Part shown: positions 5,285 to 44,316 of the stretch, piece after piece
Numbering within the stretch: position 1 is the stretch's first letter
Layout of the letters: each line of letters opens with the position of its first letter
Origin: an uncultured Hungatella sp.
GTDB taxonomy: Bacteria; Bacillota; Clostridia; Lachnospirales; Lachnospiraceae
Direction: 5' to 3'
Assembly: GCA_947089145.1 (NCBI GenBank)
Contig: CAMUJH010000027.1
Coordinates: 1 to 58,625 of the forward strand
Length of the DNA: 58,625 nt
Notes under the pieces: model-generated
The model's input: the letters and a program-made list of their open reading frames with translations, nothing else
What the model was told of the DNA's origin: nothing
Database searches by the model: none
Made by a program: the position numbers and the translations under genes

Positions 5285-5489
5285 AGGACGGGGAAGCAGT
5301 GAAGAAGCAGCAAGGAAGCAGCAATTCAAAAAACAGGTAAAATTTTCTGAAATGTTGCATAAACAACAATCTCTTTTTCTTTCTTATTTATAATAAAAAC
5401 AGATGGAAAGAAAAATTTAAAATTGTATCTGAGCTGTTGCCCATAAGAGTAAGAAGGCAGCAGGATTCGGATGCAGAATGGAGGAGAAG

Positions 5490-6329: not shown

Positions 6330-6333
6330 CCCT

Positions 6334-8187: not shown

Positions 8188-9480
8188 ATGAAGCAGGATA
8201 TGATTGTGATTCTGGATTTGGGAAGTACCAGGAATACGGAAATTGCCCGTCAGATCCGTGATATGGGGGTGTACAGTGAGATCCATCCCCACGACATTAC
8301 GCCTGGGGATCTAAAAGGGCTGGAGAATGTGAAAGGAATCGTGCTGAACGGCGGGGAGAACCGGATAGTGGACGGCGTGCCGGTGGATATTGATCCGGCG
8401 ATTTACGAATGCGGGTATCCTTTGCTTGCCATTGACCACCCTGCGGCAAAGTGCGGAAGGAATTTTAAGGAGCTTCCCAATGGGGATGTCTTGAGGGAGT
8501 TTGTGTTTGGTGTGTGCCAGGCACAGCCCAACTGGAACATGAAGAATTTTATTGCGGATCAGGTGGAACTTATCCGCAGGCAGGTGGGGGAGAGGAAAGT
8601 GCTTCTTGCCCTGTCCGGCGGTGTGGATTCTTCGGTGGTTGCGGCGATGCTGATTAAGGCTGTAGGAAAACAGCTTGTGTGCGTTCATGTGAACCATGGA
8701 CTGATGAGGAAGCATGAGTCGGAGAGTGTGATCCAGGTGTTTAAGAATCAGCTTCACGCCAATTTGATTTATGTGGACGCCACGGAGAGGTTTTTGGGGA
8801 AACTGGAGGGCGTGGCAGACCCGGAGCAGAAGAGGAAAATCATTGGCAGCGAGTTTATCAGGGTATTTGAGGAGGAGGCCAGGAAGCTGGAGGGCATCGA
8901 CTTTTTAGGCCAGGGAACCATTTACCCGGATATTATTGAAAGCGGAACCAAGACGGCCAAGATGGTCAAGTCCCACCACAATGTGGGCGGTCTGCCGGAA
9001 GATTTGAAGTTTGAACTGGTGGAGCCGCTGAAGCAATTGTTTAAGGACGAGGTGCGGGCCTGCGGAGTGGAACTGGGGCTGCCGGAGTCTATGGTGTACC
9101 GTCAGCCGTTTCCAGGGCCGGGACTGGGCGTAAGATGTTTAGGAGCGATTACCAAGGATAGGCTGGAGGCAGTGCGGGAGTCGGATGCTATCTTGAGAGA
9201 GGAATTTGCAAAGGCTGGTTTGGACAGGAAGGTGTGGCAGTATTTTACGGTGGTGCCGGACTTTAAGTCTGTGGGCGTGAAGAATAACGCCAGGTGCTTT
9301 GACTATATGGTGATTATCCGGGCTATCAATACGGTGGATGCTATGAGCGCCAGCGTTGAGAGGGTGGATTGGGATGTGCTGGAGAGGATTACGGATAGGA
9401 TTTTGAGCGAGGTGGGGAATGTGAATCGGGTTTGCTTTGATATGAGCCCGAAGCCGCCGGCGACGATTGAGTTCGAATAG
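8188..9480 (+). CDS. guaA: GMP synthase with eroded glutaminase domain
   Basis: GuaA converts XMP to GMP with ATP and ammonia. This protein has 430 aa against the usual 510-525. The C-terminal synthetase half is intact: PP-loop SGGVDSS at residues 143-149, QGTIYPDIIESG, the dimerisation part and the terminal SPKPPATIEFE. The N-terminal class-I glutaminase domain starts normally (VILDLGSTRNTEIARQIRD) but jumps from about residue 80 to the linker FVFGVCQAQPNW. The GICYG nucleophile-elbow cysteine and the HPE catalytic dyad are missing, so it should use free ammonia or a partner glutaminase. I recall similar short forms in related Clostridia, so this may be a lineage trait rather than damage. 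The ATG follows AGAAGGAG. The prophage starts right after its terminator. Confidence 0.9.
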   Translation: MKQDMIVILDLGSTRNTEIARQIRDMGVYSEIHPHDITPGDLKGLENVKGIVLNGGENRIVDGVPVDIDPAIYECGYPLLAIDHPAAKCGRNFKELPNGDVLREFVFGVCQAQPNWNMKNFIADQVELIRRQVGERKVLLALSGGVDSSVVAAMLIKAVGKQLVCVHVNHGLMRKHESESVIQVFKNQLHANLIYVDATERFLGKLEGVADPEQKRKIIGSEFIRVFEEEARKLEGIDFLGQGTIYPDIIESGTKTAKMVKSHHNVGGLPEDLKFELVEPLKQLFKDEVRACGVELGLPESMVYRQPFPGPGLGVRCLGAITKDRLEAVRESDAILREEFAKAGLDRKVWQYFTVVPDFKSVGVKNNARCFDYMVIIRAINTVDAMSASVERVDWDVLERITDRILSEVGNVNRVCFDMSPKPPATIEFE

Positions 9481-9491
9481 GGGACATTTCA

Positions 9492-9530
9492 GCCGGAAGT
9501 CTGATAAAACAAGGGCTTCCGGCATTTTTT
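9492..9530 (+). terminator. guaA terminator
   Basis: GCCGGAAG (9492-9499) pairs with CTTCCGGC (9516-9523), followed by a run of six T. It ends the guaA transcript and marks the last host sequence before the mobile DNA. Confidence 0.85.
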
Positions 9531-9539
9531 ATTTCTTCG

Positions 9540-9556
9540 TGACACTAACATGACAC
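9540..9556. repeat. Pair of TGACAC repeats, possible integrase arm sites
   Basis: TGACAC occurs at 9540-9545 and 9551-9556. The inverse form GTGTCA recurs at 44384-44389 and 44405-44410, near the other likely boundary. They may be arm-type binding sites of a tyrosine recombinase; no core att repeat could be identified. Confidence 0.25.
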
Positions 9557-9600
9557 TGAAAATATAGCCAGCTACTTTTCTTACTCCAAAATGGATGTGG

Positions 9601-9629
9601 TTGAAATCCCTGTCATATTGTGGTAGAAT
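9601..9629 (+). promoter_or_regulatory. Promoter of the type I toxin
   Basis: TTGAAA (9601-9606), exactly 17 bp, then TAGAAT (9624-9629). Predicted start near 9636, giving a leader of about 80 nt before the toxin. Confidence 0.65.
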
Positions 9630-9714
9630 CCATTCATGGAACCCATGACAGGGGTGGCAGCCTCCCGAGCCAATGACCGGTTTGCCGGAATACATAGGAA
9701 GGGAGGTGGCGCCA

Positions 9715-9840
9715 ATGACAGCTGCAGATATCATTTTGATATTCATAGGGGTGATCGGCTTGCTGATCGCTTTCGGTAGCTTTGTTATAGCGTTGCTTGC
9801 CTTTCTCGACAGAGACAAGGACCACAAGCGAAAAAAATAA
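9715..9840 (+). CDS. Holin-like type I toxin, 41 aa
   Basis: A small membrane peptide: a short N-terminus, one long hydrophobic helix of about 25 residues (IILIFIGVIGLLIAFGSFVI) and a charged tail DRDKDHKRKK. This is the layout of the putative holin-like/TxpA-type toxins of Firmicutes, which depolarise the host membrane when produced. The ATG is preceded by GGGAGGTGG. Its own promoter lies upstream, and a convergent antisense promoter and terminator lie downstream, as in txpA/ratA loci. It stands between guaA and the integrase, at the edge of the prophage, and so could stabilise the element. The assignment rests on layout and composition, not on a search. Confidence 0.7.
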   Translation: MTAADIILIFIGVIGLLIAFGSFVIALLAFLDRDKDHKRKK

Positions 9841-9963
9841 TGCCCACCCTGTTAGCACCAGGATGGGCGCCTCTCACTGAGAGGTAACTGCCTTTGCTTG
9901 GGAAACTCCACCTTTGGAGTGGGGCTCCTACGGGGCGTCTGTTACAGCAGGCGCCTCTCTTTA
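9831..9963 (-). ncRNA. Predicted antisense antitoxin RNA
   Basis: A convergent transcript of about 130 nt is predicted from the promoter at 9969-9997 down to a hairpin (9842-9851 against 9859-9868) whose minus strand is followed by ATTATTTTTTT. It is complementary to the last codons and 3' UTR of the toxin mRNA, the arrangement of RatA-like antitoxins. Confidence 0.6.
9934..9962 (+). terminator. Possible toxin mRNA terminator
   Basis: GGCGTCTG (9934-9941) pairs with CAGGCGCC (9948-9955), followed by TCTCTTTA. The T-run is weak. A second small hairpin lies at about 9906-9920. Confidence 0.4.
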
Positions 9964-9968
9964 TCTAA

Positions 9969-9997
9969 AGAATAGCACAATCCGTGAGAAAGTTCAA
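9969..9997 (-). promoter_or_regulatory. Antisense RNA promoter
   Basis: On the minus strand TTGAAC (9997-9992), 17 bp, TATTCT (9974-9969). Its -35 overlaps the stop codon of the integrase gene. Confidence 0.6.
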
Positions 9998-11100
9998 GGA
10001 TTTTCTTCTCCCGGCGCTGCCCTCCGGAACTGGTTGAGCCGGTCGGCCAGCTGCTGATCCTTGTCCGGGTAGAGATGGGAATAGGTGTCCAGCGTGGTCT
10101 TCACGGATTCATGCCCCAGCCGGTTCGCAATCTCCAAGGGGGCAAAGCCCATTTCAATCAGCATACTGGCGTGGGAGTGCCTCAGGTCGTGGACTCTTAT
10201 GGGCGGCAATCCGACTTTGGCGGCGATCCGCTTTATCTCCTTATCCAGGGCAGATTTCGTGAAATAGAAGATTCGGTCCCCCTTTTCAATCCCATAGAGT
10301 TTTGACACATATTCCCGGATATCATCATATAGGAAATCTGGTATGGATATGCACCGCTTGGCCTTGGGCGTCTTTGGCTCCAGGAATAATTCTTCCCCAT
10401 TCACTTTTGCATAGTTCTTATTGATATCAATCCGCTTTGAAGGGAGGATGTCTGCGGGGGTAAGGGCCAGCAGCTCCCCGGAGCGCATCCCGGTATAAAA
10501 CAGCACATCAAAGGCCAGCTTTACAGAGGATTTTTGTATGGCGACGGAGAATCGCTCATACTGCGCCTGCGTCCATATGTTCATTTCCTCGGCCCGGCTC
10601 TTCCCCATGCTACCGGCGGCCCGACATGGATTGGCAGAGAGCCGGTAGTGGGCTACGGCATAATTCATAATGGCGGACAGCTGATTATTGACAGTCTTGA
10701 GATATGTCTGGGAAAACGGATTCCCGGCTTCATCCCGATAGGATATCAATTCGTTCTGCCATTTTCGGACCTTGATGGTGTCAATATCGCATACCTTCAG
10801 ATTCCCGAAGTAGGGGAGCAGCTTTCCTTTTATGATGAACCGCTTATTTTCCATTGTGGTAGGCTTCAACCGGTGCGACATGTCCTCCAGATAGTTCTCC
10901 ACCAGGGAGGAAAAGAGGATATCGCTGGTATTGTTCTGTTGATCTAAGAATGAGTGTTCAAATTCTTTCGCTTCACGCTGGGTTTTGAAGCCACGTTTGC
11001 ATATCTGCTTTTTTGCGCCGGTCCAATCTGTCACATAGAATTTTGCTCGCCAGCGTGTGGTTTTTCCGTCTTTTAAGGTATACTTGTAGGCTGGCATCAT
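9994..11100 (-). CDS. int: Tyrosine-type phage integrase
   Basis: A site-specific recombinase of 368 aa. It has an N-terminal arm-binding beta domain (residues 1-50, KYTLKDGKTTRWRAKFYV), a SAM-like core-binding domain (about 60-155) and the catalytic domain with TGMRSGELLAL (first Arg), HDLRHSHASML (HxxR) and a C-terminal Tyr in TTLDTYSHLYPDK. All catalytic residues are present, so it may be active. AAGGAAGTG precedes the start; a second ATG follows directly. Its position beside guaA places the left end of the prophage between 9,530 and 9,994. Confidence 0.93.
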   Translation of the reverse strand: MMPAYKYTLKDGKTTRWRAKFYVTDWTGAKKQICKRGFKTQREAKEFEHSFLDQQNNTSDILFSSLVENYLEDMSHRLKPTTMENKRFIIKGKLLPYFGNLKVCDIDTIKVRKWQNELISYRDEAGNPFSQTYLKTVNNQLSAIMNYAVAHYRLSANPCRAAGSMGKSRAEEMNIWTQAQYERFSVAIQKSSVKLAFDVLFYTGMRSGELLALTPADILPSKRIDINKNYAKVNGEELFLEPKTPKAKRCISIPDFLYDDIREYVSKLYGIEKGDRIFYFTKSALDKEIKRIAAKVGLPPIRVHDLRHSHASMLIEMGFAPLEIANRLGHESVKTTLDTYSHLYPDKDQQLADRLNQFRRAAPGEENP

Positions 11101-11226
11101 GTGTCACTTCCTTTTTGGTAGTAATTCTGTTGTATTTTCATGGAAGCAGATAATCTTGAAAAATCTGGTACGCCGTTTTATAATACAGTCATATAATACA
11201 TTTTTGATTAAGAAAGGAGCAGGGCT

Positions 11227-11445
11227 ATGGCATATAAGACTAAGGAGCAGGCTGGGACAGAACTGTTGGCTGCCATTGACGCATATATTGATGCGGCGAT
11301 GGCAGAGCGGAATGAGGAAATACGTAGCAAGAGAACGGCGCGATTCCTCAAATATGTTGAAGAACACAAAAATGATACAATTCATATCCCTGAGGATGCA
11401 CAGGGGCCCTATGCGCAGTCCTTAAGAGAAAAGGTTGGTGTTTAG
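11227..11445 (+). CDS. Small hypothetical protein
   Basis: A 72-aa acidic, mostly helical protein with AAMAERNEEIRSKRTARFL in its middle. A good AAAGGAG precedes the ATG. Its 3' end overlaps the convergent gene by 4 bp. No family recognised. It lies in the lysogeny region beside the integrase. Confidence 0.55.
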   Translation: MAYKTKEQAGTELLAAIDAYIDAAMAERNEEIRSKRTARFLKYVEEHKNDTIHIPEDAQGPYAQSLREKVGV

Positions 11446-11723
11446 AAATCCGCTTCGTTTTCTTCTTCCTTTTCAATATCAAGTTCTGCTAACATATCTG
11501 CGAAGCACTCGAAGGTATATCCTATTACAGCCCGCAGGAGTTGGTCGGAGATATTTATAATCTTTCTATAAATTTCCGGCTGGATAATTCCTTCCAATTC
11601 CGCATAGGCTGCATCCAGCCTTTTTTCATACATGGCAATATTATTTCTGTCCTGCTTCAGCAGCAGTTGTTTATAATCGTCACTTTTTGTCTTTTGTAAA
11701 TCTTTTCGTAAATCAGGGTTCAT
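11442..11723 (-). CDS. Small hypothetical protein of the lysogeny region
   Basis: A 93-aa protein, helical with likely coiled-coil character (MYEKRLDAAYAELEGII) and a Glu-rich tail. It is co-directional with the repressor and integrase, so probably part of the lysogenic transcript. No family recognised. Confidence 0.6.
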   Translation of the reverse strand: MNPDLRKDLQKTKSDDYKQLLLKQDRNNIAMYEKRLDAAYAELEGIIQPEIYRKIINISDQLLRAVIGYTFECFADMLAELDIEKEEENEADF

Positions 11724-11781
11724 TTATGAATACTCCAAAGATATAATCATTATTTTCCCCTTCGGTACCACTCGAAGGGTA

Positions 11782-12159
11782 TTATTTTCCCGGTTTATCA
11801 GTTCCGGTCTTCTTCAACGAGGAATCTGCTGCAACGGACTCCTCATTGAGACGTTTTAGATAGCCTTTTAGCTCTCCCCTGAATTCATATTGGGCCTCTG
11901 GAGGAAGTTGGTGAATAAGTGATAGCCATTCCGCATCACTAGATGTGATAAAAGGATTTGGGTATTCTTTTCCGGTCAATAGAAATTCACATGAAACCCC
12001 CAAAAATTCACAAATTGGAATTATTAGCTTGGCAGGAGGATCAGTGCCACGATTTTTCCAATTTGTCATTGTGCTCGTATTTATTCCAATATATCTGCAC
12101 AAATCCGCTGCGACTAAAGATTTTTCATTTAATATTGTGAGAATTCGCTGTATTATCAT
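11782..12159 (-). CDS. CI-like XRE repressor
   Basis: A 125-aa protein with a Cro/CI-type HTH at residues 4-60 ([20 protein letters not shown]) and a short C-terminal helical part. It is the likely master repressor of the prophage: it sits between the integrase and a divergent early region. The ATG at 12159 is preferred, since GAGGG lies 5 bases upstream; a TTG at 12171 extends the frame by four codons. It lacks a LexA-like peptidase domain, so induction by RecA cleavage is unlikely for this protein alone. Confidence 0.8.
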
Positions 12160-12195
12160 AGAAACCCTCAAAATCCTAAAATGTGAATAAAAGCA

Positions 12196-12224
12196 TTGAT
12201 AAACTCACAAATGGGGATTATTAT
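12196..12224 (+). promoter_or_regulatory. Rightward promoter opposite the repressor
   Basis: TTGATA (12196-12201), 17 bp, TATTAT (12219-12224). The flanking half-sites TGTGA (around 12182) and TCACA (around 12206) form a spaced inverted repeat that the repressor could bind. Confidence 0.5.
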
Positions 12225-12700
12225 AAAGATACACAACAACAAGTTACACTATCAAAACAGCAGTAATGTGATCCAAATCAAAAAAGATGGTTTGAGAAGT
12301 CCTGCCGGTAGCTTGCTACTGCCGACAGGGACAACTCCCGAAATTTTTTTACCCTAACCTGCATTGTATGCCCATAAATCGTTCCGGTTCCATATAACCT
12401 GATTTCGGCATAGCTGCTTTTAAGCAAGATGAGCTATTGGTGTCAGGCAATGCCACTTATGCAGTTATGGTTCTGCCATGCAAATATTATGTACCCAATT
12501 AGTTGGCATAATCTAAGGCCGCGCCAATGCGTTTATTTGGAATCGTCTAGTTCCAAAACCTTATATAGGGAACAGGGTAGCTCAAAAACTTTTTTATGAG
12601 TTTCTTCAAGAGACCACCTTCTTTCATTGGTATTAATTTGCACAGAATTATAATAGCACATTACTGTAACTTTTTAAAGCAAAAAGTGTGAAAGGAGTGA
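12225..12700 (+). other. Non-coding early leader region
   Basis: About 475 bp without a credible gene. From 12301 two short hairpins (CCTG..CAGG enclosing GTAGCTTGCTAC, then GGGACAACTCCC) are followed by seven T at 12344-12350, so the promoter at 12196 may make a terminated RNA of about 120 nt. The rest to 12620 shows only weak repeats. Confidence 0.4.
12627..12654 (+). promoter_or_regulatory. Early promoter
   Basis: TTGGTA (12627-12632), 16 bp, perfect TATAAT (12649-12654), 50 bp before the first rightward HTH gene. Confidence 0.6.
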
Positions 12701-12704
12701 GGCA

Positions 12705-12908
12705 ATGAAAAGAGAATTATCATCATGGGGCAGGCAGTGTAAGGTTCAGATGATTGTTCTTGAAAAAACGCTTTCTGATCTAAGTCAGGAGACAAACTTA
12801 TCGAAAACTTACATTTCAGCCATCATAAACGGAAGGATGGTAGTGCCTGAGAAAACAATACAAACTATTAGCAAGGCTTTGGAGGTTGATGCTGCGCTTG
12901 CGCGATAA
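12705..12908 (+). CDS. Small Cro-like HTH protein
   Basis: A 67-aa single-domain XRE/Cro protein (LSDLSQETNLSKTYISAIIN is the helix-turn-helix). GAAAGGAGTGAG precedes the ATG. As the first gene of the rightward operon opposite the CI-like repressor it is the natural Cro candidate that would favour lytic growth (inference). Confidence 0.75.
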   Translation: MKRELSSWGRQCKVQMIVLEKTLSDLSQETNLSKTYISAIINGRMVVPEKTIQTISKALEVDAALAR

Positions 12909-12958
12909 GGTATTATAGTCTGCTAGTTCCATTATAAGAAGTGGAGGTAAAAATCAAA

Positions 12959-13435
12959 ATGTCAAACATAACAGCGAAGACAAGCTCCAACATATTTTAT
13001 AAGGCCCGCTGCGAGGCATCAGCACATAACGAACATCTGAGCAGCCGGGAAGGGGCAGCAGACATCATGTCCATAGACCGGGGCCGTCTTTATAGGATTG
13101 AGAGCGGGATAGCTAATCCATATCCGGAAGAGGTTCATATGATGGCAGATCTGTACAATGCGCCGGAGCTTCGGAATCACTACTGTAGGGAGGCATGCCC
13201 CCTGGGTCGGGATATGCCGGTGCTGGAACTGGAGGATCTGGACCGGATAACCGTGCGTGCTATGGCAAGTCTCCGCAAGGTGGCCCAGGCCAAAGAAAGC
13301 CTGCTGGATATCACCGCAGATGGCATTATTACTAAGGATGAAAAGCCAGAGCTAAGGAAGATCCTGGCTACACTTGATGAAATATCTGCCATTGCCCAGA
13401 GCCTGAAGGTATGGACAGAAAAAAATCTGGAGTAG
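12959..13435 (+). CDS. XRE-family regulator with helical tail
   Basis: A 158-aa protein. Residues 10-70 resemble an XRE HTH (SREGAADIMSIDRGRLYRIE), followed by CREACPLG and a long helical C-terminus. This type of phage regulator is widespread in Clostridia and of undefined role. ATG 12959 is chosen; GGAGG lies 12 bases upstream, a long but usable gap. It is the second gene in the early operon. Confidence 0.7.
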   Translation: MSNITAKTSSNIFYKARCEASAHNEHLSSREGAADIMSIDRGRLYRIESGIANPYPEEVHMMADLYNAPELRNHYCREACPLGRDMPVLELEDLDRITVRAMASLRKVAQAKESLLDITADGIITKDEKPELRKILATLDEISAIAQSLKVWTEKNLE

Positions 13436-13446
13436 GAGGTGACAAG

Positions 13447-13872
13447 TTGTATCTGGCACAAAATTTGAAATATCTGCGGGAGCAGAGAGGCCTGAAGCAG
13501 CAAGATCTGGCGGATATTCTAGGGGTAAAACAATCTACAGTTGGAAATTGGGAAGTTGGCAAAAGAGAACCAGAAATAAATATGCTGGTATGCATTGCAG
13601 AGTATTTTGGCATAACACTTGACGACTTGATTCTAAAAGATTTGCGACCACCGACTCCACTCTATGCCTTAAATCTTAGATTTCTGCGGAAAAGACATAA
13701 GATGACGCAAGAGGATATAGGGAATCTGCTTAATGTTACACAAAAGTGTGTGAGCAAATATGAAAGCTGAGCAGTTCAACTGAGCAATCAGTGGTTAATA
13801 AACGTATCAGAAATTTTCAACGTTACCATAGATGATTTACTGAAAAAAGATCTGTCAAAGGAGGGTGTGTGA
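13447..13872 (+). pseudogene. Two-domain XRE regulator interrupted by a stop codon
   Basis: A TTG start at 13447 follows a perfect AGGAGGTG. Residues 1-65 are a complete XRE HTH (LAQNLKYLREQRGLKQQDL, VKQSTVGNWEVGKREP). A linker LRPPTPLYALN leads into a second HTH copy (RFLRKRHKMTQEDIGNLLNV) that is cut by TGA at 13768-13770. The same frame continues without further stops to 13872 and encodes the rest of the second domain (WLINVSEIFNVTIDDLLKKD). One nonsense change thus splits a duplicated-HTH protein. The first domain may still work as a 107-aa product. Confidence 0.7.
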
Positions 13873-13874
13873 CC

Positions 13875-14240
13875 ATGGCAAAAGCATGGTTGGAAGATAA
13901 GGCAACATGGCTGTTCGACCTGGCGCATGACAATCTGGACGAGGACGCCATCGTAAAGGGGTTTTTGAAACATTATGTACTGCAAGGGCAGGGAATAGAT
14001 GATGTGCAGCGGGATATGCACTTTCGCACACACTACGGAGACTTTTACTTGAAAGCTGCCATGGCCTATCTGCGGAGAGCGCTGGAGGTGCAGATCGAGG
14101 CACCACCCCGCTCGGAGATGCGGACGCTGGATGAAGTGCAGGGGATTGTTGATGCCGTCTGCGCAGGCATCCGGGGCCAGGTTGATTACTATGATCCGGA
14201 GATTGATGATGATCCGTATGTTGTCCGAGCGGCATGGTAA
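13875..14240 (+). CDS. Hypothetical phage protein
   Basis: A 121-aa acidic protein with FLKHYVLQGQGIDDVQRDMH and an acidic tail DPEIDDDP. GGAGGG precedes the ATG. No family recognised; conserved position in the early phage operon suggests a DNA-related role, but nothing shows it. Confidence 0.6.
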   Translation: MAKAWLEDKATWLFDLAHDNLDEDAIVKGFLKHYVLQGQGIDDVQRDMHFRTHYGDFYLKAAMAYLRRALEVQIEAPPRSEMRTLDEVQGIVDAVCAGIRGQVDYYDPEIDDDPYVVRAAW

Positions 14241-32071: not shown

Positions 32072-32224
32072 GTGGCGGAGATAAAGATTATGAAAGGTCA
32101 TGGCCTGTATTACGAATGCCCGGAATGCGAGGCTAAAGTGGAGCTGGGGCAGAACTACTGCCAGGATTGCGGGGAGCCGCTTAACTGGAAAGAGGATTAT
32201 GATGATTGGGGAGGCGGGGAATGA
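32072..32224 (+). CDS. 50-aa zinc-ribbon protein
   Basis: A GTG start after GGAGG at 32060. The sequence has YECPECEAKVELG and YCQDCGEPLNW, a full four-Cys ribbon, and an acidic tail. It ends in an ATGA overlap with the PAPS-reductase-like gene, so the two are probably translated together. Confidence 0.6.
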   Translation: MAEIKIMKGHGLYYECPECEAKVELGQNYCQDCGEPLNWKEDYDDWGGGE

Positions 32225-33210
32225 GCGCAAGCATAGAGAAGTTTTTGTACATAGGCATCGAGAAAACAAAGTCTACTCTGTTTGATGATGTGAGGCTGCC
32301 AATGGATTTGGAACATAAAGCTATAGAGCGGATAAAGATGGCATCAGAAATGAGCCTGCAGCACTACAAAAAGCCTTTGGTCTGTACTTACTCTGGTGGA
32401 AAGGATTCGGATGTGATGCTGGAACTTTTTAAGCGTTCGGGGGTCCAATTTGAGGTACATCATAGCCATACCACGGCGGATGCCCCGCAAACTGTTTACC
32501 ACATCCGGAAAGTATTTCGGGATCTGGAACTTATCGGGATAAAGTGTGATATTGATTATCATATACAGCCAAATGGGAAAGCAGTAACTATGTGGAATTT
32601 GATTCCACGGAAGTTAATTCCGCCAATGAGACGTAAACGCTATTGCTGTTCGGAGCTTAAAGAGAGCGGATGCAGAAACAGGATGATTGCAACAGGGGTT
32701 AGATGGGCAGAAAGCAATTCAAGAAAAGATAGAGAAACCTTTGAGGCTATTGGTCGTACCAAAAAAGAAGGGATTTTTGTCTCGTATGAAAAAATGTTAT
32801 TGTCTGATAATGACGATGCAAGGAGAATGTTCGAACGATGCCAAATGAAGGCAAGTACAGTGATAAATCCAATCATAGACTGGAAAGACAGCGACGTATA
32901 TGATTTTTACTGGCATGAATGCCCATCCCACAACCCTTTGTACAAAATGGGCTATACAAGGGTTGGATGCATTGGATGCCCTATGGCGTCAAAGAAGCGT
33001 TGGAAGGAATTTGCCGATTTTCCAAAATACAAAGCAGCCTATCTCTGGGCATTCGAAAAAATGCTGGAGGTACGCACTAAGAAAGGGTTAACGCATAAGT
33101 GGAAAACGGCAGAGGAGGTGTTTCTCTGGTGGATGGAGGATAAGAATATTCCTGGACAGTTTGAAATGGAGTTCGGGGATGGGGATGTAGTTGTAGGGAG
33201 GCGCAAATGA
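32221..33210 (+). CDS. PAPS-reductase-family PP-loop protein (first of three)
   Basis: A 329-aa member of the adenine-nucleotide alpha-hydrolase-like PP-loop family. TYSGGKDSDVML at residues 56-67 is the ATP pyrophosphate loop. Later come a CCSELKESG pair, SNSRKDRETFEA, INPIIDWKDSDVYDFYW and GCIGCPMASKKRW. The four cysteines could hold a metal or iron-sulfur centre, as in DndC-type proteins. In phages these proteins are linked to unknown DNA or RNA modification. It is co-translated with a zinc-ribbon protein and overlaps a cytosine-methylase-like gene. Confidence 0.85.
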   Translation: MSASIEKFLYIGIEKTKSTLFDDVRLPMDLEHKAIERIKMASEMSLQHYKKPLVCTYSGGKDSDVMLELFKRSGVQFEVHHSHTTADAPQTVYHIRKVFRDLELIGIKCDIDYHIQPNGKAVTMWNLIPRKLIPPMRRKRYCCSELKESGCRNRMIATGVRWAESNSRKDRETFEAIGRTKKEGIFVSYEKMLLSDNDDARRMFERCQMKASTVINPIIDWKDSDVYDFYWHECPSHNPLYKMGYTRVGCIGCPMASKKRWKEFADFPKYKAAYLWAFEKMLEVRTKKGLTHKWKTAEEVFLWWMEDKNIPGQFEMEFGDGDVVVGRRK

Positions 33211-37434: not shown

Positions 37435-38187
37435 ATGAAAACGGACAACAAAAATATTGACACCGGGAAGGCGGCGGCACTCAGATCGGCCGGCTGGAAA
37501 AGTGAGAGGATTGCCGCAGAAATGGGAATTACACCTGAAGCAGTAGAAGAGGCTCTGCGTGCTCATGCGGAAAAGCCGGTCCGAGAACAAAAACGCAAAG
37601 CTGAGGAAGAAGCGAAACCAGAGAAGATTGTGTGTCTCTCATCCGCAGAACTGCGTGAAATATATGAAAAAGCAGCTGCGATTGGGGCGAGAGAGGCGCT
37701 CAGGACATTCGAGCAGGAGCGGAAGAAAGAGTACAGCCACCGGGCTGACAAGCGGCTTCGCAATACCAAACTTCTTCTGCGGAATTATCACATGCTGAAG
37801 GAGCACGCAGAAAATTCTGTTTTTGGCCGGACGCAGATGAAAGAGTCGGCGCTGGATATTCTGGAATCCATGATGTCCATCTATAATGACGAGGTTATCA
37901 TCCAGAGCATTAAGAACAGCGCCACCAGAACGGCTATCATCGTATCCCATATCGAAATTATGTTCGGATTGTATTATTCTTACTGCGATAGGTCCACTAA
38001 TAGGGAGATTGATCTGCGTCGGTATAATGTGGTATGGGATATGTATATGGCGGAGGATACGCTGTCGGCCAAGGAGATTGCGGAAAAGCAGAATATTTCC
38101 AAGGACAGCGTATATTCGGATCTCCGGGTAGGGATTGAGAGGCTGACGGCGCTCATTTTTGGGGTGGACGGATTGCACGTTCGATAA
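37435..38187 (+). CDS. ArpU-like phage late-gene regulator
   Basis: A 250-aa DNA-binding protein. The N-terminus has a first HTH (ALRSAGWKSERIAAEMGITP), followed by a charged coiled segment. The C-terminal half ends with LSAKEIAEKQNISKDSVYSD and RVGIERLTALIFGVDG, the sigma-region-4-like end seen in ArpU/late activator proteins of Firmicutes phages. In such phages the regulator switches on the packaging and structural operon that follows, here the symporter cassette and terS. Confidence 0.7.
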   Translation: MKTDNKNIDTGKAAALRSAGWKSERIAAEMGITPEAVEEALRAHAEKPVREQKRKAEEEAKPEKIVCLSSAELREIYEKAAAIGAREALRTFEQERKKEYSHRADKRLRNTKLLLRNYHMLKEHAENSVFGRTQMKESALDILESMMSIYNDEVIIQSIKNSATRTAIIVSHIEIMFGLYYSYCDRSTNREIDLRRYNVVWDMYMAEDTLSAKEIAEKQNISKDSVYSDLRVGIERLTALIFGVDGLHVR

Positions 38188-38272
38188 ATCCTCCGGCTCA
38201 AAAAACTTTCCATTGACATTACAATATAAAAGTGGGAAAATTGTACTCGTAAAATTCTAAATCGAACGTCGG

Positions 38273-38304
38273 GGAAGCCTGGTAGTATTTAGGGCTTCCT
38301 TTTT
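38273..38304 (+). terminator. Terminator after the late regulator
   Basis: GGAAGCC (38273-38279) pairs with GGCTTCC (38293-38299), followed by five T. A TTGACA (38213-38218) with an indistinct -10 lies between the regulator gene and this hairpin, so it may instead be a late promoter followed by an attenuator. Confidence 0.65.
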
Positions 38305-38385
38305 CGTGCAATTTTTCCGGGAAAGGAGAGGGAGCAGGAAGAGGATGGCATGAGGGCTCCTCCAAAAGAAAAAAGGAGGAATACC

Positions 38386-39771
38386 ATGAATTATACTTTG
38401 ATCGTGCTGTTGGCCTATGCGGTGGTAATGTTTGGGGCAACGGTGCTTATGACAAAAAAAGAGGGCAATGTCGAAAGGTTCAGTGTCGGGAATAGAGATA
38501 TCGGATGGGGCGTATCCGCGCTGAGCATAGCTGCCACATGGATATGGGCGCCGGCGCTGTTCACGTCAACCGAGAACGCATACACAAAGGGCTTTGCAGG
38601 GCTCTTCTGGTTCCTGGTACCGAATGTGCTTTGCCTGATACTGTTCATCCCTTTTGCAAAAAGGATAAGGGAAGAAATGCCGGAGGGGATCACTCTTTCC
38701 GGGTATATGCATGAAAAATACCGGTCCGGCTCCGTGAAGAACATTTACCTGCTTCAGCTCGGAGCGTTGTCGGTATTATCTACCGGGGTGCAGCTGCTGG
38801 CAGGCAGCAAGATTTTAAGTATGCTTACGGGGATCCCTTTTGCCACCATGACGGTGATCATGGCGGCGATTGCGTTTTCCTATTCCCAGTTTTCCGGGAT
38901 AAGGGCCTCGATACTGACAGATGCCATTCAGATGGTCTTCATGTTGGCCGCCAGCATAGGTTTTGTGGCTTTTGGTGTAAAGAATGGCGGAGGGCTGGAA
39001 ACGCTGCTTACGGGTTTAAGAGGAACCACAGGGGATGCCGGACGCCTGTTCTCGGCAAGTGGACTGGAAATTTTCCTCGGATTCGGGCTTCCGACCACAA
39101 TCGGACTTATATCCGGGCCGTTTGGGGATCAGTGCTTTTGGCAGAGGGCTTTCTGCGTGAAAAAGGACAGGATCGGCAGGGCATTTCTGGTAGGAGCTTT
39201 GCTGTTTGGCCTTGTGCCGTTGTCGATGGGGATTCTCGGATTTATCGGCGCCGGCATGGGATATGCCGCGGTGGATACCGGAGTGATCAATTTTGAATTG
39301 ATAAGCACATTATTTCCGGCCTGGGCGGTGATCCCGTTTTTGTTTATGATTATTTCCGGCCTGCTGTCCACGATTGACAGTAACCTGTGCGCAGTATCAT
39401 CCCTCACAACAGACATTTTTCAGAAAAATACAATGGGGAAAACAAAACTCTCCATGATTTTGCTGTTGGCCGCCGGTATTGCAATAGCGAATATCCCAGG
39501 GCTGACGATAACGCACCTTTTCCTGATGTACGGAACGCTTAGAGCCTCCACATTGTTGCCAACGGTTCTTACCCTTAAAGGCGTAAGGCTGGCGCCGCAG
39601 GGCATCGTGGCAGGAGTTATCTCTGCCATGCTGATCGGCCTGCCAGTGTTCGGGTATGGAAATATAAAGGGGATCGCCATTTGCAAGACTGCAGGGAGCC
39701 TTCTGACAGTCGCCCTCTCTGGAGCCGTGGCGCTGGCCGTGATCAGAAAGCGGGGTGAGAGCCATGGGTGA
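38386..39771 (+). CDS. Sodium:solute symporter (SSS) family transporter
   Basis: A 461-aa membrane protein with about thirteen hydrophobic segments, the LeuT-like SSS fold that co-imports a small solute with sodium. Recognisable parts are FSVGNRDIGWGVSALSIAA, ATWIWAPALFTSTENAYTKG at helix 1-2, QFSGIRASILTDAIQMVFM and SGLLSTIDSNLCAVSSLTTD, the sodium-site helix. AAAGGAGG precedes ATG 38386. A transporter of this size is very unusual in a phage. It overlaps the next PP-loop gene by 8 bp, so both are expressed together and the solute may be that enzyme's substrate (inference). The substrate could be urea, an amino acid or another small compound. Confidence 0.85.
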   Translation: MNYTLIVLLAYAVVMFGATVLMTKKEGNVERFSVGNRDIGWGVSALSIAATWIWAPALFTSTENAYTKGFAGLFWFLVPNVLCLILFIPFAKRIREEMPEGITLSGYMHEKYRSGSVKNIYLLQLGALSVLSTGVQLLAGSKILSMLTGIPFATMTVIMAAIAFSYSQFSGIRASILTDAIQMVFMLAASIGFVAFGVKNGGGLETLLTGLRGTTGDAGRLFSASGLEIFLGFGLPTTIGLISGPFGDQCFWQRAFCVKKDRIGRAFLVGALLFGLVPLSMGILGFIGAGMGYAAVDTGVINFELISTLFPAWAVIPFLFMIISGLLSTIDSNLCAVSSLTTDIFQKNTMGKTKLSMILLLAAGIAIANIPGLTITHLFLMYGTLRASTLLPTVLTLKGVRLAPQGIVAGVISAMLIGLPVFGYGNIKGIAICKTAGSLLTVALSGAVALAVIRKRGESHG

Positions 39772-40549
39772 TATACTCGGAAGAAAGCATCGGATCAAAA
39801 ATTCCGAATGGATTGAGGCATTTGCAAAGATCGAGCAGGTAGTGAGCCGGAAAGAGCTGGATCAACTGGTGGATAAAACCGTGAAGGAGATCAAAAAGAA
39901 AACCAAAGGCAAAAAAGCCGCATATGCGTGGAGCGGCGGAAAGGATTCCCTGGTCCTGGGGGAAATCTGCCGTATGGCAGGGATAGCCCCCTGTGTGCTC
40001 GTTATCTGCAATTTGGAGTACAAAGCGTTTATAGAATGGGTAGATGCTCATAAGCCTCCGGAATTGTCCATAATCAACACAGGACAGGACATGAAATGGC
40101 TGGCCGCCTATCCGCAGATGCTTTTCCCGCAGGACAGCAAATATGCGTCCATGTGGTTTCAAATCGTCCAGCATAGAGGGCAGGCGAAATATTACAAAGA
40201 GAACCAGCTGGACATGATGCTTCTGGGGCGCCGGCGGGCAGATGGGAACTATGTGGGAAGGGGAGACAATATCTATACCAACAGACAGGGCGTGACGAGA
40301 TACAGCCCGCTCTCCGACTGGACCCATGAGCAGATGCTGGCATACATCCACTATCACAATCTGGAGATGCCGCCGATCTATGACTGGAAAAACGGCTATC
40401 TCTGCGGCACCCATCCATGGCCGGCAAGGCAGTGGACCGGCAGCGTGGAGAATGCCTGGGAAGAGATTTATGAGATAGATGCTTCCATCGTAACAGAGGC
40501 GGCAGAGCATATCCAGAGCGCAAAAGACTTTCTGGATAGTCTGAAATAA
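39764..40549 (+). CDS. PP-loop / PAPS-reductase-like protein (second of three)
   Basis: A 261-aa enzyme of the PP-loop ATP pyrophosphatase family, which activates substrates by adenylation. AWSGGKDSLVLGEICRM (PP-loop at residues 57-62) is followed by LLGRRRADGNYVGRG and YSPLSDWTHEQMLAYIHYH, the usual C-terminal motif of PAPS reductases. The dedicated PAPS-reductase catalytic ECGLH cysteine is absent, so sulfate reduction is unlikely. It starts inside the end of the symporter gene and is the last gene before a spaced inverted repeat that may restart transcription. Confidence 0.8.
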   Translation: MGDILGRKHRIKNSEWIEAFAKIEQVVSRKELDQLVDKTVKEIKKKTKGKKAAYAWSGGKDSLVLGEICRMAGIAPCVLVICNLEYKAFIEWVDAHKPPELSIINTGQDMKWLAAYPQMLFPQDSKYASMWFQIVQHRGQAKYYKENQLDMMLLGRRRADGNYVGRGDNIYTNRQGVTRYSPLSDWTHEQMLAYIHYHNLEMPPIYDWKNGYLCGTHPWPARQWTGSVENAWEEIYEIDASIVTEAAEHIQSAKDFLDSLK

Positions 40550-40560
40550 AATGTTTCCAC

Positions 40561-40600
40561 TTGACAGCACTTGCAGGCAAATGTCCGCAATAGCTGTCAA
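40561..40600. promoter_or_regulatory. Inverted repeat between PP-loop and ParB genes
   Basis: TTGACAGC (40561-40568) and GCTGTCAA (40593-40600) are perfect arms with 24 bases between them. Each arm contains a consensus TTGACA -35 box, one on either strand. It may be an operator or a promoter that sets the ParB/DUF3440 genes apart from the transporter pair. Confidence 0.45.
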
Positions 40601-40674
40601 TTTTGCTATTTGCAGATGGCATATAGATCATACGTTGCATACGCTCCTACCAAATCAGTTTGGAGGATGCGGAC

Positions 40675-41301
40675 ATGAAAGTAATAAAAATGAAGCTGGC
40701 TGATCTGGCAAAGCCTGAAAAGAATGTCAGGATACACACAGAGCAGCAGATCAAAGAGTTTCGCCGGAGCGTGGAAATGTTCGGGCAGATCAGGCCGATT
40801 GTCGTGGATGAAAAGAATATCATTCTGGCAGGGAACGGCCTGTATGATACCCTCGTTGCTATGGGGAAGGATACGGCAGACGTGTACCAGTATAACAATC
40901 TCACTGAAAATCAGAAAAAGAAGCTGATGATCGCTGACAATAAGATTTTCAGCCTGGGGATTGAGAACTTGGAGACGTTGAACAGCTTTTTGGAGGACCT
41001 GCAGAGCGATCTGGATATTCCCGGATTTGATGAAGAAATACTGAAACAGATGGTGTCGGAGGCCGAGGATATCACAAGCAAGCTTTCTAAATATGGCACG
41101 CTTGACAAAGACGAGATTCAGAGTATTAAGGAAGCGGCAGAGAGAAAGGACCAGCAGATGCAGGCCGGCCAGGAAGAGCGGCAGGCGGAACAGGCTCCGG
41201 CTGCTATAGTGCAGCAGGAGCCTGTGACAGATAATGAAGATCCCACCGAGATAAGAAAATTTGTTGCCTGCCCGAAATGCGGGGAAAAGATATGGCTATA
41301 A
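40675..41301 (+). CDS. ParB/sulfiredoxin-fold protein with zinc-knuckle tail
   Basis: A 208-aa protein. The N-terminal 90 residues are ParB/Srx-like: KMKLADLAKPEKNVRIHTEQ, FGQIRPIVVDEKN, ILAGNGLYDTLVAMG (the G-x-x-R/H-like nucleotide site has changed to NGLY) and ENQKKKLMIADNK. Then follow a helical region, a Gln/Glu-rich linker and a terminal ACPKCGEKIWL zinc half-site. GGAGG precedes ATG 40675. Its end overlaps the DUF3440 gene, which suggests the two proteins form a pair, as in IbrB/IbrA. Confidence 0.75.
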   Translation: MKVIKMKLADLAKPEKNVRIHTEQQIKEFRRSVEMFGQIRPIVVDEKNIILAGNGLYDTLVAMGKDTADVYQYNNLTENQKKKLMIADNKIFSLGIENLETLNSFLEDLQSDLDIPGFDEEILKQMVSEAEDITSKLSKYGTLDKDEIQSIKEAAERKDQQMQAGQEERQAEQAPAAIVQQEPVTDNEDPTEIRKFVACPKCGEKIWL

Positions 41302-42440
41302 AAAGATGCCCGGCCAGTATCGACGTGGTAGAAGCTGCAACAATCAGGCTTCGGAATGTTTTCCGAAACAGTCTCCCGGTTTATATGTCTTTCAGCGGTG
41401 GGAAAGATAGCCTCTGTCTGGCTCAGCTGGTGATGAATCTGATACAGAGGGGCGAGATCAATCCGGCGCAGCTTATCGTACAATTCATTGATGAAGAAGC
41501 CATTTTCCCGTGCATGGAGGAAAAAGTAAGGGAATGGCGAAAGAAATTTATGTTAGTTGGAGCAAAGTTTGAGTGGTTCTGCCTTGAGGTGAAGCACTAC
41601 AACTGCTTTAATGAGCTGTCCAACGACGAAACCTTTATCTGCTGGGACAGATATAAAAAAGATGCCTGGGTAAGGCAGCCTCCGGCATTTGCAATCCGGA
41701 GCCACCCGCTTTTGCGATCCCGTGCGGATGTGTATCAAGATTTCCTGCCACGGATATCTACTGGAGGAATTACGATAACCGGAATACGAACGGCGGAATC
41801 GGTACAGCGCCTGCAGAATATTGCGGAGATGCTGAGAGCCGGTAAATCTATGACGAATAAGCGCCAGGTATTTCCAATCTACGACTGGACCAACAATGAC
41901 GTATGGCTCTATCTCCTACGGGAAAAAGTGGATATCCCGGAGATATACCTGTTTTTATGGCAGTCCGGGACAGGGAAGGGGCAGTTGCGGGTATCGCAGT
42001 TTTTCTCCATCGACACTGCTAAGAGCCTTGTGAAGATGAACGAGTATTATCCTGATCTCATGGAAAGAATCGTACGGCGGGAACCAAACGCTTATCTTGC
42101 AGCCTTGTACTGGGATAGCGAAATGTTTGGAAGAAGTACCGCTGCCAGAAAGCAGAACGAAAAGGGGAGTGGCGAAAAGGACTATAAATCGGCGCTGCTG
42201 GAGCTGTTTTCTGATATGGACGGCAATTTTCGGACGGAGCACAAACGGTATGTGGCGAGCAGGTACCGCAATTTTTTTATAAGCGTTTCTGCTATTGCGG
42301 ACAATAAGGACTGCAAGGCGATTTACGAGGGCCTTATATCGGGCGATCCGAAGCTGCGTTCGTTCCGGGCGCTATACCAAAGGATTTATGGGAAATACAT
42401 CACAGAAGCCAAGAAAAAGGAGGGGATGCCGAATGGATAA
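41292..42440 (+). CDS. IbrA-like (DUF3440) PP-loop protein (third of three)
   Basis: A 382-aa protein. SFSGGKDSLCLAQLV (PP-loop at residues 35-40) is followed by IVQFIDEEAIFP, CWDRYKKDAWVRQPP, ITGIRTAESVQR, FPIYDWTNNDVWLYL and a long helical C-terminus (KRYVASRYRNFFIS) of DUF3440 type. IbrA, encoded with the ParB-like IbrB in E. coli prophages, was described as a regulator of Ig-binding genes; its chemistry is unknown. The gene overlaps ParB-like genes on both sides (10 and 8 bp), a strong sign of a functional complex. Confidence 0.82.
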   Translation: MAIKRCPASIDVVEAATIRLRNVFRNSLPVYMSFSGGKDSLCLAQLVMNLIQRGEINPAQLIVQFIDEEAIFPCMEEKVREWRKKFMLVGAKFEWFCLEVKHYNCFNELSNDETFICWDRYKKDAWVRQPPAFAIRSHPLLRSRADVYQDFLPRISTGGITITGIRTAESVQRLQNIAEMLRAGKSMTNKRQVFPIYDWTNNDVWLYLLREKVDIPEIYLFLWQSGTGKGQLRVSQFFSIDTAKSLVKMNEYYPDLMERIVRREPNAYLAALYWDSEMFGRSTAARKQNEKGSGEKDYKSALLELFSDMDGNFRTEHKRYVASRYRNFFISVSAIADNKDCKAIYEGLISGDPKLRSFRALYQRIYGKYITEAKKKEGMPNG

Positions 42441-42954
42441 TAAGATAGCCGGCCCTCTGTCAACGCTCCGGTGGGTAGACAGGGGGAGTATAAAACCGAA
42501 TGACTACAACCCAAACAAAGTATCAAAACAGAACCTGGAACTGCTGAAACAATCCATACTTGCCAATGGATGGACCCTGCCGATTGTGGTAAGGCCGGAT
42601 TTTACGATCATTGACGGATTCCACAGATGGACAGTTGCCGGGGAAGAGCCTCTGGTTTCCATGCTGGACGGGAAAGTGCCGGTGGTAATTGTGGAGCATA
42701 AGGATAAGGCGGGGAACATCTACGGAACTGTTACCCATAACCGGGCAAGAGGTACGCATCTGCTGGGACCCATGAAGGCAATCGTTAAGGAACTGATGGC
42801 AGAAGGGAAATCCGTGGAAGAGATTGGGAAGCAGCTAGGCATGAGGCCGGAGGAAGTCTTCCGCCTTTCAGAGTTCTCTAAAGAGGATTTCCTGAGAATG
42901 ATGATTAAGCCGGATCGGGGATTTTCCAATGCGGAGTTTATAACGAAGATTTAA
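42433..42954 (+). CDS. IbrB-like ParB/Srx-fold protein
   Basis: A 173-aa protein. KPNDYNPNKVSKQNLELLKQ, NGWTLPIVVRPD, TIIDGFHRWTVAG (the DGxHR-type active or nucleotide site), THNRARGTHLLGPM and an HTH-like KSVEEIGKQLGMRPEEVF are the ParB/IbrB hallmarks. Unlike the first ParB protein it keeps the intact DGFHRW motif. The ATG at 42433 has GGAGGGG upstream and overlaps the DUF3440 gene. It sits directly before terS. Confidence 0.8.
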   Translation: MDNKIAGPLSTLRWVDRGSIKPNDYNPNKVSKQNLELLKQSILANGWTLPIVVRPDFTIIDGFHRWTVAGEEPLVSMLDGKVPVVIVEHKDKAGNIYGTVTHNRARGTHLLGPMKAIVKELMAEGKSVEEIGKQLGMRPEEVFRLSEFSKEDFLRMMIKPDRGFSNAEFITKI

Positions 42955-43049: not shown

Positions 43050-43838
43050 ATGCCAAGGGCGCCAAGCGACAAAAAAGCGGAAGCAGAAAAACTGTTCAAT
43101 AAAGGCATGAAACTTATTGATATAGCAAAGAAACTTGATGTCCCCGAGGGGACAATTCGTAGTTGGAAAAACAGGGGGAAATGGGGAGAAAAGTCTTCAA
43201 AAAAACCAAACGCAACGTTGCAAAAAAAAGATGATAGAGAAAATGCAACGTTGCATAAAAGGAAGCGGGGTGGGCAGCCAGGTAATCGAAATGCTGAGGG
43301 CTCAAAGGGCGGGGCTGCCCCTTTGCGGAATAAGAACGCAGAAACGCATGGTGCCTATTCTAAAGTGTACTGGGACGCCCTGGATGAAGACGAACTGGAT
43401 TTAATCGATAGTATGGACGGGGTGGAGGAACAACAGTTGATCATGCAGCTGCAGATGCTCTCTGTGCGGGAGCGCAGGCTGATGCGGAGCATTAAGAAGT
43501 ACAGGGAGCTGGAGGTTGAAAACCATGGACTTTCTGTGAAGGCAGTATCAAAAACAAAAAAAGTTGAGGATATGATAGATTTTGATGGCGAGAGCGTTGG
43601 TGCTGGAAAATATAAGAAAGTGACAGAAACCAGTGTTACACATACGGAAGCTGTCATGAATAGCATAATGGTTCTGGAATCGGAACTTACCAAGGTGCAG
43701 AAGGCAAAAACGAAAGCAATCGAAGTTTTATCAAAGATCCGTATTGAACGGATTAAAATGGAGGATGAAACATCTGGAAATGAAACGGTTGATGATTGGA
43801 TTGCCGCTGTTTTAGGAATTGATGCGGATGAAGAATAA
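43050..43838 (+). CDS. terS: Phage terminase small subunit
   Basis: A 262-aa DNA-recognition subunit of the packaging motor. The N-terminal HTH (MKLIDIAKKLDVPEGTIRSW) is typical of the YjcR/terS group; a basic Gly/Asn-rich linker (KRKRGGQPGNRNAEG, NAETHGAYSKVY) follows, then a long helical oligomerisation region. GAGGTGG precedes the ATG. Its 5' third contains two copies of the palindrome GCAACGTTGC (43212-43221, 43244-43255), possibly its own packaging-site target. Confidence 0.85.
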   Translation: MPRAPSDKKAEAEKLFNKGMKLIDIAKKLDVPEGTIRSWKNRGKWGEKSSKKPNATLQKKDDRENATLHKRKRGGQPGNRNAEGSKGGAAPLRNKNAETHGAYSKVYWDALDEDELDLIDSMDGVEEQQLIMQLQMLSVRERRLMRSIKKYRELEVENHGLSVKAVSKTKKVEDMIDFDGESVGAGKYKKVTETSVTHTEAVMNSIMVLESELTKVQKAKTKAIEVLSKIRIERIKMEDETSGNETVDDWIAAVLGIDADEE

Positions 43839-44316
43839 ATCAGCAATTTGCCGGAAGAATTTCTTTCAGAACAGGATTCCGGTATATCGCAGCAACCCGG
43901 TTGCATTTGCCAAAGAGGTATTATTATTTCAGCCAGACGAATGGCAGGCAGAGGCGCTGCAGGATCTAGCTGACGCACCAAAAGTAGCCATAAAGTCAGG
44001 ACAGGGCGTCGGAAAGACCGGAATGGAGGCGGTTGCGCTCTTGTGGTTTCTCTGTTGCTTTCCATATCCAAGAATCGTTGCAACGGCGCCAACGAAGCAG
44101 CAGCTCCATGATGTACTATGGTCTGAGGTCAGTAAGTGGATGGGAAAATCCCCGCTTCTGACCAAAATCCTAAAATGGACAAAGACCTATATCTACATGG
44201 TAGGTTATGAGAAACGCTGGTTTGCGGTTGCGAAAACGGCAACGAAACCGGAGAATATGCAAGGCTTCCACGAGGATAATATCATAGGAAAAGCCAGGGC
44301 TTATCAGGTCTTATAA
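43828..44316 (+). pseudogene. terL: Terminase large subunit, truncated
   Basis: Starts within the end of terS. The first 150 residues are normal TerL ATPase: FQPDEWQAEALQDLADAPKV, Walker A KSGQGVGKTGMEAV (57-64), RIVATAPTKQQLHDVLWSEV and KTATKPENMQGFHEDN. Right after EDN, where the Walker B and nuclease parts should follow, the sequence changes to unrelated residues and stops. About 300 residues are missing, so packaging cannot work. The break near 44278-44284 is the junction with the next mobile segment. Confidence 0.85.

Follow-up and report, generated by a model that had tools for sequence, protein, structure and literature searches.

Several described systems resemble parts of a five-gene phage cassette that lies at positions 38386 to 42954 of contig CAMUJH010000027.1 from an uncultured Hungatella sp. 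(assembly GCA_947089145.1; the whole analysed stretch, 58,625 nucleotides of the forward strand, is hereafter called the window). The cassette encodes, in this order, a sodium:solute symporter (SSS), a PP-loop protein of the phosphoadenosine phosphosulfate (PAPS) reductase family (PP1), a ParB-type protein (ParB1), a second PP-loop protein (PP2) and a second ParB-type protein (ParB2). The closest described relatives are IbrA and IbrB (YbdN and YbdM) of Escherichia coli, which are homologous to PP2 and ParB2 and are encoded in the same order by overlapping genes; in strain K-12 no annotated SSS, PP1 or ParB1 adjoins the pair, and we know of no mechanism for it. DndC, which acts in DNA phosphorothioation, shares the PP-loop superfamily and the ATP-type motif with the cassette enzymes, but PP2 scores far below the DndC cut-off. 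Phage ParB-type DNA methyltransferases (phrog_498), whose genes often occupy the slot ahead of the terminase genes, possess a ParB half resembling ParB1, whereas the cassette lacks a methyltransferase domain. In Fusobacterium phage phiFN37 (locus L243), the gene for a ParB1 relative ending in a CxxC tail neighbours those of a queuine-transferase-like protein and a queuosine-precursor transporter, a set which presumably serves 7-deazaguanine modification; it differs from the cassette in its enzyme, a relative of queuine tRNA-ribosyltransferase, and in its transporter, which is of the Vut_1 type and not an SSS. The SSS family includes PanF, PutP, DUR3 and SGLT, and the cassette symporter matches the solved DUR3, choline, multivitamin, iodide and glucose transporters in profile comparisons.

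The five-gene module and its leader are undescribed in the accessible parts of the publications found by literature search. A sequence-only reading of the window had proposed that the cassette imports a small solute and uses it for DNA or nucleotide modification. Two elements of this interpretation stand, namely that the five genes act as a unit and that the imported solute seems to matter; its remark that SSS transporters hardly ever occur in phages does not, since these symporters form a PHROGs family (phrog_20720) and have relatives on 94 IMG/VR contigs.

Conservation of the module and exchange of its transporter

The five open reading frames (ORFs) lie on the + strand, contain no internal stops and were assigned the starts conserved in relatives. 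SSS (38386..39771; 461 amino acids, aa) matches the Pfam SSF model at 77 bits (gathering threshold 22.8) and phrog_20720 at 750 bits. PP1 (39764..40549), which has an ATP-type loop, matches PF01507 (PAPS_reduct) at 46.7 bits (threshold 22.5), ParB1 (40675..41301), composed of a ParB-like domain, a variable linker and a CxxCG C-terminal tail, matches phrog_620 (E 8e-49), and the IbrA/YbdN-like PP2 (41292..42440) matches PF01507 at 51.7 bits (22.5) and phrog_2302 (E 1.5e-94). The IbrB/YbdM-like ParB2 (42433..42954) matches PF02195 (ParB_N) at 26.9 bits (26.3) and phrog_2159 (E 7e-72). The genes overlap by 8 bp (SSS/PP1), 10 bp (ParB1/PP2) and 8 bp (PP2/ParB2), and the sole gap, of 125 bp, separates PP1 from ParB1; this arrangement and the identities of the symporter and PP1 had been read correctly from the sequence.

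These genes are one conserved, selected module, which many phages of gut bacteria have immediately ahead of their packaging genes. Each scan retained its 80 best matches only, and the counts thus cover close relatives; recounts anchored on PP1 and on ParB2 were made to remove the bias of the symporter-led search. Anchoring on PP1 yielded 96 distinct loci, with an upstream transporter in 84 of the 84 that have at least 1,200 bp upstream and with ParB1, PP2 and ParB2 downstream in 88 of the 88 with room. Among 72 distinct ParB2-anchored loci, a transporter is present in all 53 scorable ones. When all loci are pooled (181 distinct), a transporter lies within 4.5 kb in 165 of 166 scorable cases, the sole exception being L270, where the SSS is further upstream owing to an insertion in PP1 (about 3.5 kb, 10474-14029, in Eubacterium plexicaudatum ASF492). 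The IMG/VR scan used the symporter as query; the best 80 of the 94 relatives span 54-94% identity, and among these 80 ParB1, PP2 and ParB2 are found at 71 of 73 loci with 4.2 kb downstream. The two others are L067, with an interrupted SSS, and L065, which lacks ParB1 and PP2, apparently deleted between PP1 and ParB2 (9386-10422). Species genomes contain 101 SSS relatives, and among the best 80 of these the three downstream genes are present at 53 of 69 loci with room; the other 16 are interrupted (L270, L277, L306), incomplete (L300, L301) or belong to an outgroup with 42-50% identity (11 loci).

The named carriers are mostly Clostridia (Lachnospiraceae, Oscillospiraceae and others), together with four Treponema bins; prophages of Anaerotruncus colihominis DSM 17241 and Agathobaculum desmolans ATCC 43058 contain the complete set of five. 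PP1 was detected at E<=1e-20 in 2 of 391 genomes of the class, the window's own included. The ratio of nonsynonymous to synonymous substitution rates (dN/dS) is 0.035-0.18 for all five genes in 17 of 20 planned comparisons, two PP2 pairs being saturated and one ParB2 pair left out, which indicates purifying selection. Two terminase types follow the module (phrog_2/5902 and phrog_15); terminase genes related to those of the window occur at 51 of the 73 IMG/VR loci, and among the other 22, L058 was assigned the other type by PHROGs.

In the 84 scorable PP1-anchored loci, the transporter slot is occupied by an SSS in 63 (split in L114), by a membrane protein of about 331 aa in 19 and by an ATP-binding cassette (ABC) permease with a binding protein in 2. 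Because all 84 loci fill the slot, with three gene types, the imported solute seems to matter, and the replacement of the transporter inside an otherwise fixed module, which implies that this solute is needed, is the strongest argument to that effect. The SSS falls below the NCBIfam cut-offs of all four models matched, and its substrate is therefore not readable from homology; an alignment of 28 sequences shows no variation at S328 and T329, which may correspond to S340 and T341 of the PutP Na+ site. The ~331-aa gene is annotated as 'transporter membrane protein' in Faecalibacterium phage FP_Taranis. Its product matches no Pfam, NCBIfam or PHROG family apart from sub-cut-off SoxE_N and small accessory protein matches, and a profile comparison with SSS (E 5e-4, probability 32%) provides a lead that it is perhaps a diverged SSS. 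The two ABC binding proteins are NMT1/SsuA-like, with SsuA_fam as the best model (116.5 and 82.4 bits against a curated cut-off of 163.5) and an unnamed exported protein (3qsl) followed by SsuA (2x26) as the best solved structures. This similarity hints at a sulfonate-like solute; our guess would be an organosulfur compound or another small anion.

A full-length SSS relative is present in one of the 50,697 records of the phage collection. Recent capture of the symporter from a host was ruled out: among 195 related genomes, 82 contain SSS matches, of which only those in the window's own genome, G015 (97%) and G054 (80%) are close, all others being at most 28% identical. Homologous phages do carry the SSS, contrary to the outcome that the sequence-only reading had named as fatal to its proposal, a symporter missing from such phages and closely matching the host chromosome. 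Spread on plasmids was likewise rejected, the best match in PLSDB, where no close SSS relative was found, being only 30%.

Several individual loci deviate from the common arrangement. The SSS is interrupted after residue 333 in L067, L277 and L306, which suggests site-specific insertion into the transporter gene; on the contig shared by L067 and L114, the remainder of the SSS and the entire module are found ~15 kb further along. In L397 (581-4852) the order is PP1-SSS-ParB1-PP2-ParB2, the transporter being relocated yet retained. The 12 outgroup SSS loci (42-50% identity), of which two are overlapping stretches of one contig, include three with Pfam-supported Asn_synthase-type PP-loop genes beside the SSS (L314, L317, L322). 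ORFs with an SGGIDS-like motif, recognised by eye and devoid of Pfam matches, occur near the SSS in L319, L323 and L324, with a sub-threshold ATP_bind_3 match also nearby in L323, and no PP-loop-type neighbour was recognised at the remaining outgroup loci. In L314 and L322 a zinc-knuckle-like protein encoded near the SSS matches the topoisomerase VI Toprim model at 27.7 and 22.9 bits (cut-off 24.1).

The PP-loop and ParB-type proteins

The SGGxDS-type motifs of both PP-loop proteins are strictly conserved: S60, G62, K63, D64 and S65 are invariant in 26 aligned PP1 sequences, as are S40, G42, K43, D44 and S45 in 25 PP2 sequences. In alignments, PP1 and PP2 retain the SGGKDS loop, for which E. 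coli CysD has SIGKDS and CysH no such motif, whereas the C-terminal ECGLH tail, whose cysteine is catalytic in CysH, is present in E. coli CysH and absent from both cassette proteins. PP1 reaches 25.2 bits with the CysH model TIGR00434 (cut-off 165.1), and with the NCBIfam CysH and CysD models the scores of PP1 and PP2 are far under cut-off. Since they combine an ATP-type loop with the absence of the CysH tail, PP1 and PP2 are not ordinary PAPS reductases, and a literal PAPS reductase function in sulfur assimilation was set aside on the same grounds; from these sequence features, adenylation appears more likely than PAPS reduction. One invariant and one nearly invariant cysteine of PP2 (C110, C102) and two nearly invariant cysteines of PP1 leave room for a thiol role.

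PP2 is 24% identical to YbdN over 355 aligned residues, so that its description as IbrA-like stands; the DUF3440 label attached to it found no support, as PP2 matched PF01507 and not DUF3440 at E<=0.01 in a Pfam copy that was not checked for the DUF3440 model. Partial or low-scoring PADLOC matches were obtained for PP2 (DndC 32 bits, BrxP 31 bits) and PP1 (BrxP 19 bits), and PP2 scores 27.2 bits with the NCBIfam DndC model (cut-off 290.4). One publication assigns NinC of phage lambda to the phosphoadenosine phosphosulfate reductase family (PMC10695390), and lambda may thus carry a simple relative of enzymes of the PP1/PP2 type.

ParB1 yields no Pfam ParB_N match at E<=0.01, its assignment to ParB coming from PHROGs. 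The 'zinc tail' of the earlier description is a single CxxCG knuckle at the C terminus, invariant in 28 aligned sequences, and not a full zinc ribbon. ParB1 shares homology with the phage DNA methyltransferases of phrog_498 in their ParB half; it is 208-209 aa long, and its matches to methyltransferase models cover their ParB part only, as with the PADLOC type II methyltransferase model (53 bits). Both this homology and the position of the cassette ahead of the terminase genes, on which the sequence-only reading had drawn, are real. ParB2 is 39% identical to YbdM and retains an intact DGFHRW motif, as had been noted: D64, G65, H67, R68 and W69 are invariant and F66 nearly so in 26 aligned sequences. 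Its second half appears helix-turn-helix-like by eye.

The upstream region and a structured leader RNA

Directly ahead of the cassette leader, a regulator-like gene (37435..38187, + strand; phrog_1558, E 1e-49; weak C-terminal matches to helix-turn-helix and sigma-70 region 4 models) occupies the place of a late regulator. Of 58 IMG/VR loci with 2 kb of sequence ahead of the SSS, 36 encode a relative of this gene in that interval, and in FP_Taranis a gene annotated as RinA-like takes its place. It is followed on the + strand by a promoter-like sequence, TTGACA-17-GAAAAT with TG before the second hexamer (38213..38241), which is aligned and conserved in 17 chosen leaders including that of the window; a promoter scan alone is uninformative here, with 6 promoter-like sites against 6.4 in shuffles. 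The conserved element GTAAAATTCTAAATC (38249..38263, + strand) stands 3' of this site in the leader alignment, and a similar element is found in further leaders. Between the promoter-like site and the first gene, a permissive stem finder located an intrinsic-terminator-like hairpin (38271..38304, + strand), which is absent from the list of a simple scan; in each of 30 chosen leaders the same finder reports a stem of at least 6 pairs followed by a T run, formed by 30 different arm pairs, the stems picked in L023, L271 and L285 being doubtful. A TCCTCC/GGAGGA hairpin covers the symporter ribosome-binding site (38358..38380, + strand) and is found in 29 of these 30 leaders. Folding of whole leaders gave z = -2.6 for the window and z = -3.8 for L003. 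At the lambda late promoter controlled by Q, a promoter is likewise followed by a terminator, and by analogy the module may be expressed late.

Leaders of other carriers contain two more hairpins, P2, whose CUCCUU loop shows, by inspection, complementarity with the ribosome-binding site, and P3, whose loop reads CGCCA. From 24 chosen leaders, RNAalifold predicted 15 pairs, 14 of them with double changes, covering the first hairpin and P2 but not P3. A covariance model (R1) seeded with 7 leaders was run on 73 sources (1.1 Mb) chosen after the motif was seen; it produced 38 matches at E<=1, of which 34 are at E<=0.01, 36 are distinct and 7 are the seed, the weaker ones being in L351, L043, L057 and L334. 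The matches precede an SSS in 24 cases and the ~331-aa gene in 14, and all but one have their end no more than 10 nt from the start of the transporter gene as estimated from the alignment (37 of 38), that of L209 lying 103 nt upstream. The 35 negative sources comprise the window, both ABC loci, 6 outgroup, 18 SSS and 8 ~331-aa loci; the motif was thus not found in the window, whose leader is simpler, nor in the two ABC loci.

In the R1 alignment, which is biased in favour of the model, 89.8% of cells pair, compared with 70.0% in shuffles, double changes are seen in 19 of 22 pairs (shuffle mean 14.1), and the covariation score is 0.491 versus 0.188 for shuffled and at most 0.073 for slid controls; in helix 3, one pair is not formed in 19 of 31 sequences. 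Three leaders, two of type 2 and that of the window, had no Rfam match reaching the gathering threshold. R1 was found in none of 291 genomes of the class, which include no known carrier. In a whole-genome control, 9 of 14 carrier genomes or records were detected, and two of the five undetected (L283, L321) hold R1 in the locus search; since the whole-genome search misses known carriers, the empty result in the 291 genomes is a weak one. A second match in G581, a terminator-like hairpin between rnfB-like and dehydrogenase-like genes, was judged to be due to chance (1 of 10 matches). The type 2 leaders combine a conserved structured leader with an expression platform, as expected of a candidate riboswitch. 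The presence of one RNA before two transporter types would fit control by a common ligand, and would equally fit shared descent of the upstream region; the leader RNA offers a handle for identifying the solute.

Candidate functions and genomic surroundings

The mechanism most consistent with these sequence features would be modification of phage DNA before packaging. The phage's own transporter would import one kind of small solute, probably coupled to Na+, the two putative ATP-pyrophosphatase (adenylating) PP-loop enzymes would activate either the solute or a nucleic-acid acceptor, and the ParB-family proteins would direct this reaction or serve as its carriers, presumably on DNA. The most likely target would be phage DNA shortly before packaging, in keeping with expression alongside the late genes. 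Taken whole, this explanation is proposed tentatively, as a serious possibility that stops short of being probable. A more specific form, nutrient-dependent DNA hypermodification, in which a ligand-sensing leader RNA would control the importer and ParB-directed adenylating PP-loop enzymes would attach the building block, or its sulfur or nitrogen, to DNA before packaging, we regard as rather unlikely in full detail. The Asn_synthase-type PP-loop genes beside three outgroup SSS genes speak for this explanation, and the best parallel for a DNA-modification function may be the phiFN37 set. In that phage, an IbrA/IbrB-like pair (4710-6498) and the ParB/queuine-transferase-like/transporter set (9457-11766) are separate. 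Exchange of the importer around fixed enzymes would mean that phages import a nutrient for dedicated chemistry, and the IbrA/IbrB pair acquires a context through the module.

Several observations weigh against the explanation proposed above. ParB1 reads GxGL where the phiFN37 relative has GHGR, and with the GHxR residues lost it may act simply as a scaffold; Pfam and PHROGs detect neither a methyltransferase nor a transglycosylase domain in the five proteins. PP1 is absent from 32 of 166 scorable loci and from FP_Taranis, where the ~331-aa transporter gene accompanies ParB1, PP2 and ParB2. The ParB-ParB-PP-loop modules of PJN03 and Mwe-JY13 have no annotated transporter within ~5 kb, which shows that a related core can exist without import, and ybdNM of E. 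coli K-12 has none annotated directly beside the pair. As to the solute, pyrimidine- and nitrate-binding proteins are also among the matches of the L163 ABC binding protein, and no ABC ATPase was recognised by eye among the ORFs read beside the two ABC permeases.

The alternative that survives best, though still unlikely, is gene regulation, with the cassette co-activating phage genes in the manner of IbrA/IbrB and the transporter supplying a nutrient input. It draws on the YbdN/YbdM likeness of PP2 and ParB2, on the location of the cassette at the head of the packaging genes and on the activation of prophage eib genes by IbrAB, which a study by Sandt (2002; cited in PMC8065619) is reported to describe. 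It leaves unexplained both the two conserved ATP-pyrophosphatase loops and the transporter at every scorable PP1- or ParB2-anchored locus.

Auxiliary sulfur metabolism, in which the cassette would feed the sulfur assimilation of the host during infection, seems quite improbable. Phage 'cysH' genes are commonly read in this way, and the PF01507 matches and the SsuA-like binding protein of the ABC variant agree with it. In the accessible part of a prophage survey, phrog_424 and phrog_2302 proteins are placed under host metabolism (PMC11318856), an example of the annotation of phage PAPS-reductase-like genes as metabolism genes. The ATP-type loops, the missing CysH tail and the low CysH and CysD scores speak against such a role, in which the ParB partners and the terminase-adjacent place would have no part; that two such genes share a module with a transporter and two ParB proteins makes sulfate reduction less likely and provides a testable alternative.

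A comparably improbable proposal is that the cassette gives the prophage a means of defence or superinfection exclusion, with the ParB and PP-loop proteins acting on incoming DNA. PP-loop relatives do occur in Dnd and BREX systems and low PADLOC scores were obtained for DndC and BrxP, but these scores fall well short of those of family members, none of the five proteins was recognised as an effector nuclease, and the regulator-like gene, promoter-like site and terminator-like hairpin suggest lytic over lysogenic expression. That the cassette is an ordinary moron, its unrelated genes held together by descent in one phage lineage, would suit the mostly clostridial carriers but is very improbable in view of the dN/dS values, the two terminase types, the swapping of the transporter while the rest stays and its retention after relocation in L397.

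Outside the cassette, the window continues on the + strand with a terminase small subunit gene (43050..43838; NF040601, 146 bits, cut-off 120) and a shortened N-terminal part of a terminase large subunit gene (43819..44316; phrog_5902 and phrog_2). Residues 2-170 of a 495-aa relative are all of the large subunit that was found in the window's assembly; the gene either contains an element or belongs to a rearranged prophage. The shortened gene is followed at 44660 by an ORF weakly similar to excisionases, and the contig ends with the window. A third PAPS-reductase-family protein, BREX BrxP-like (64.7 bits) and weakly similar to DndC, is encoded at 32206-33210.

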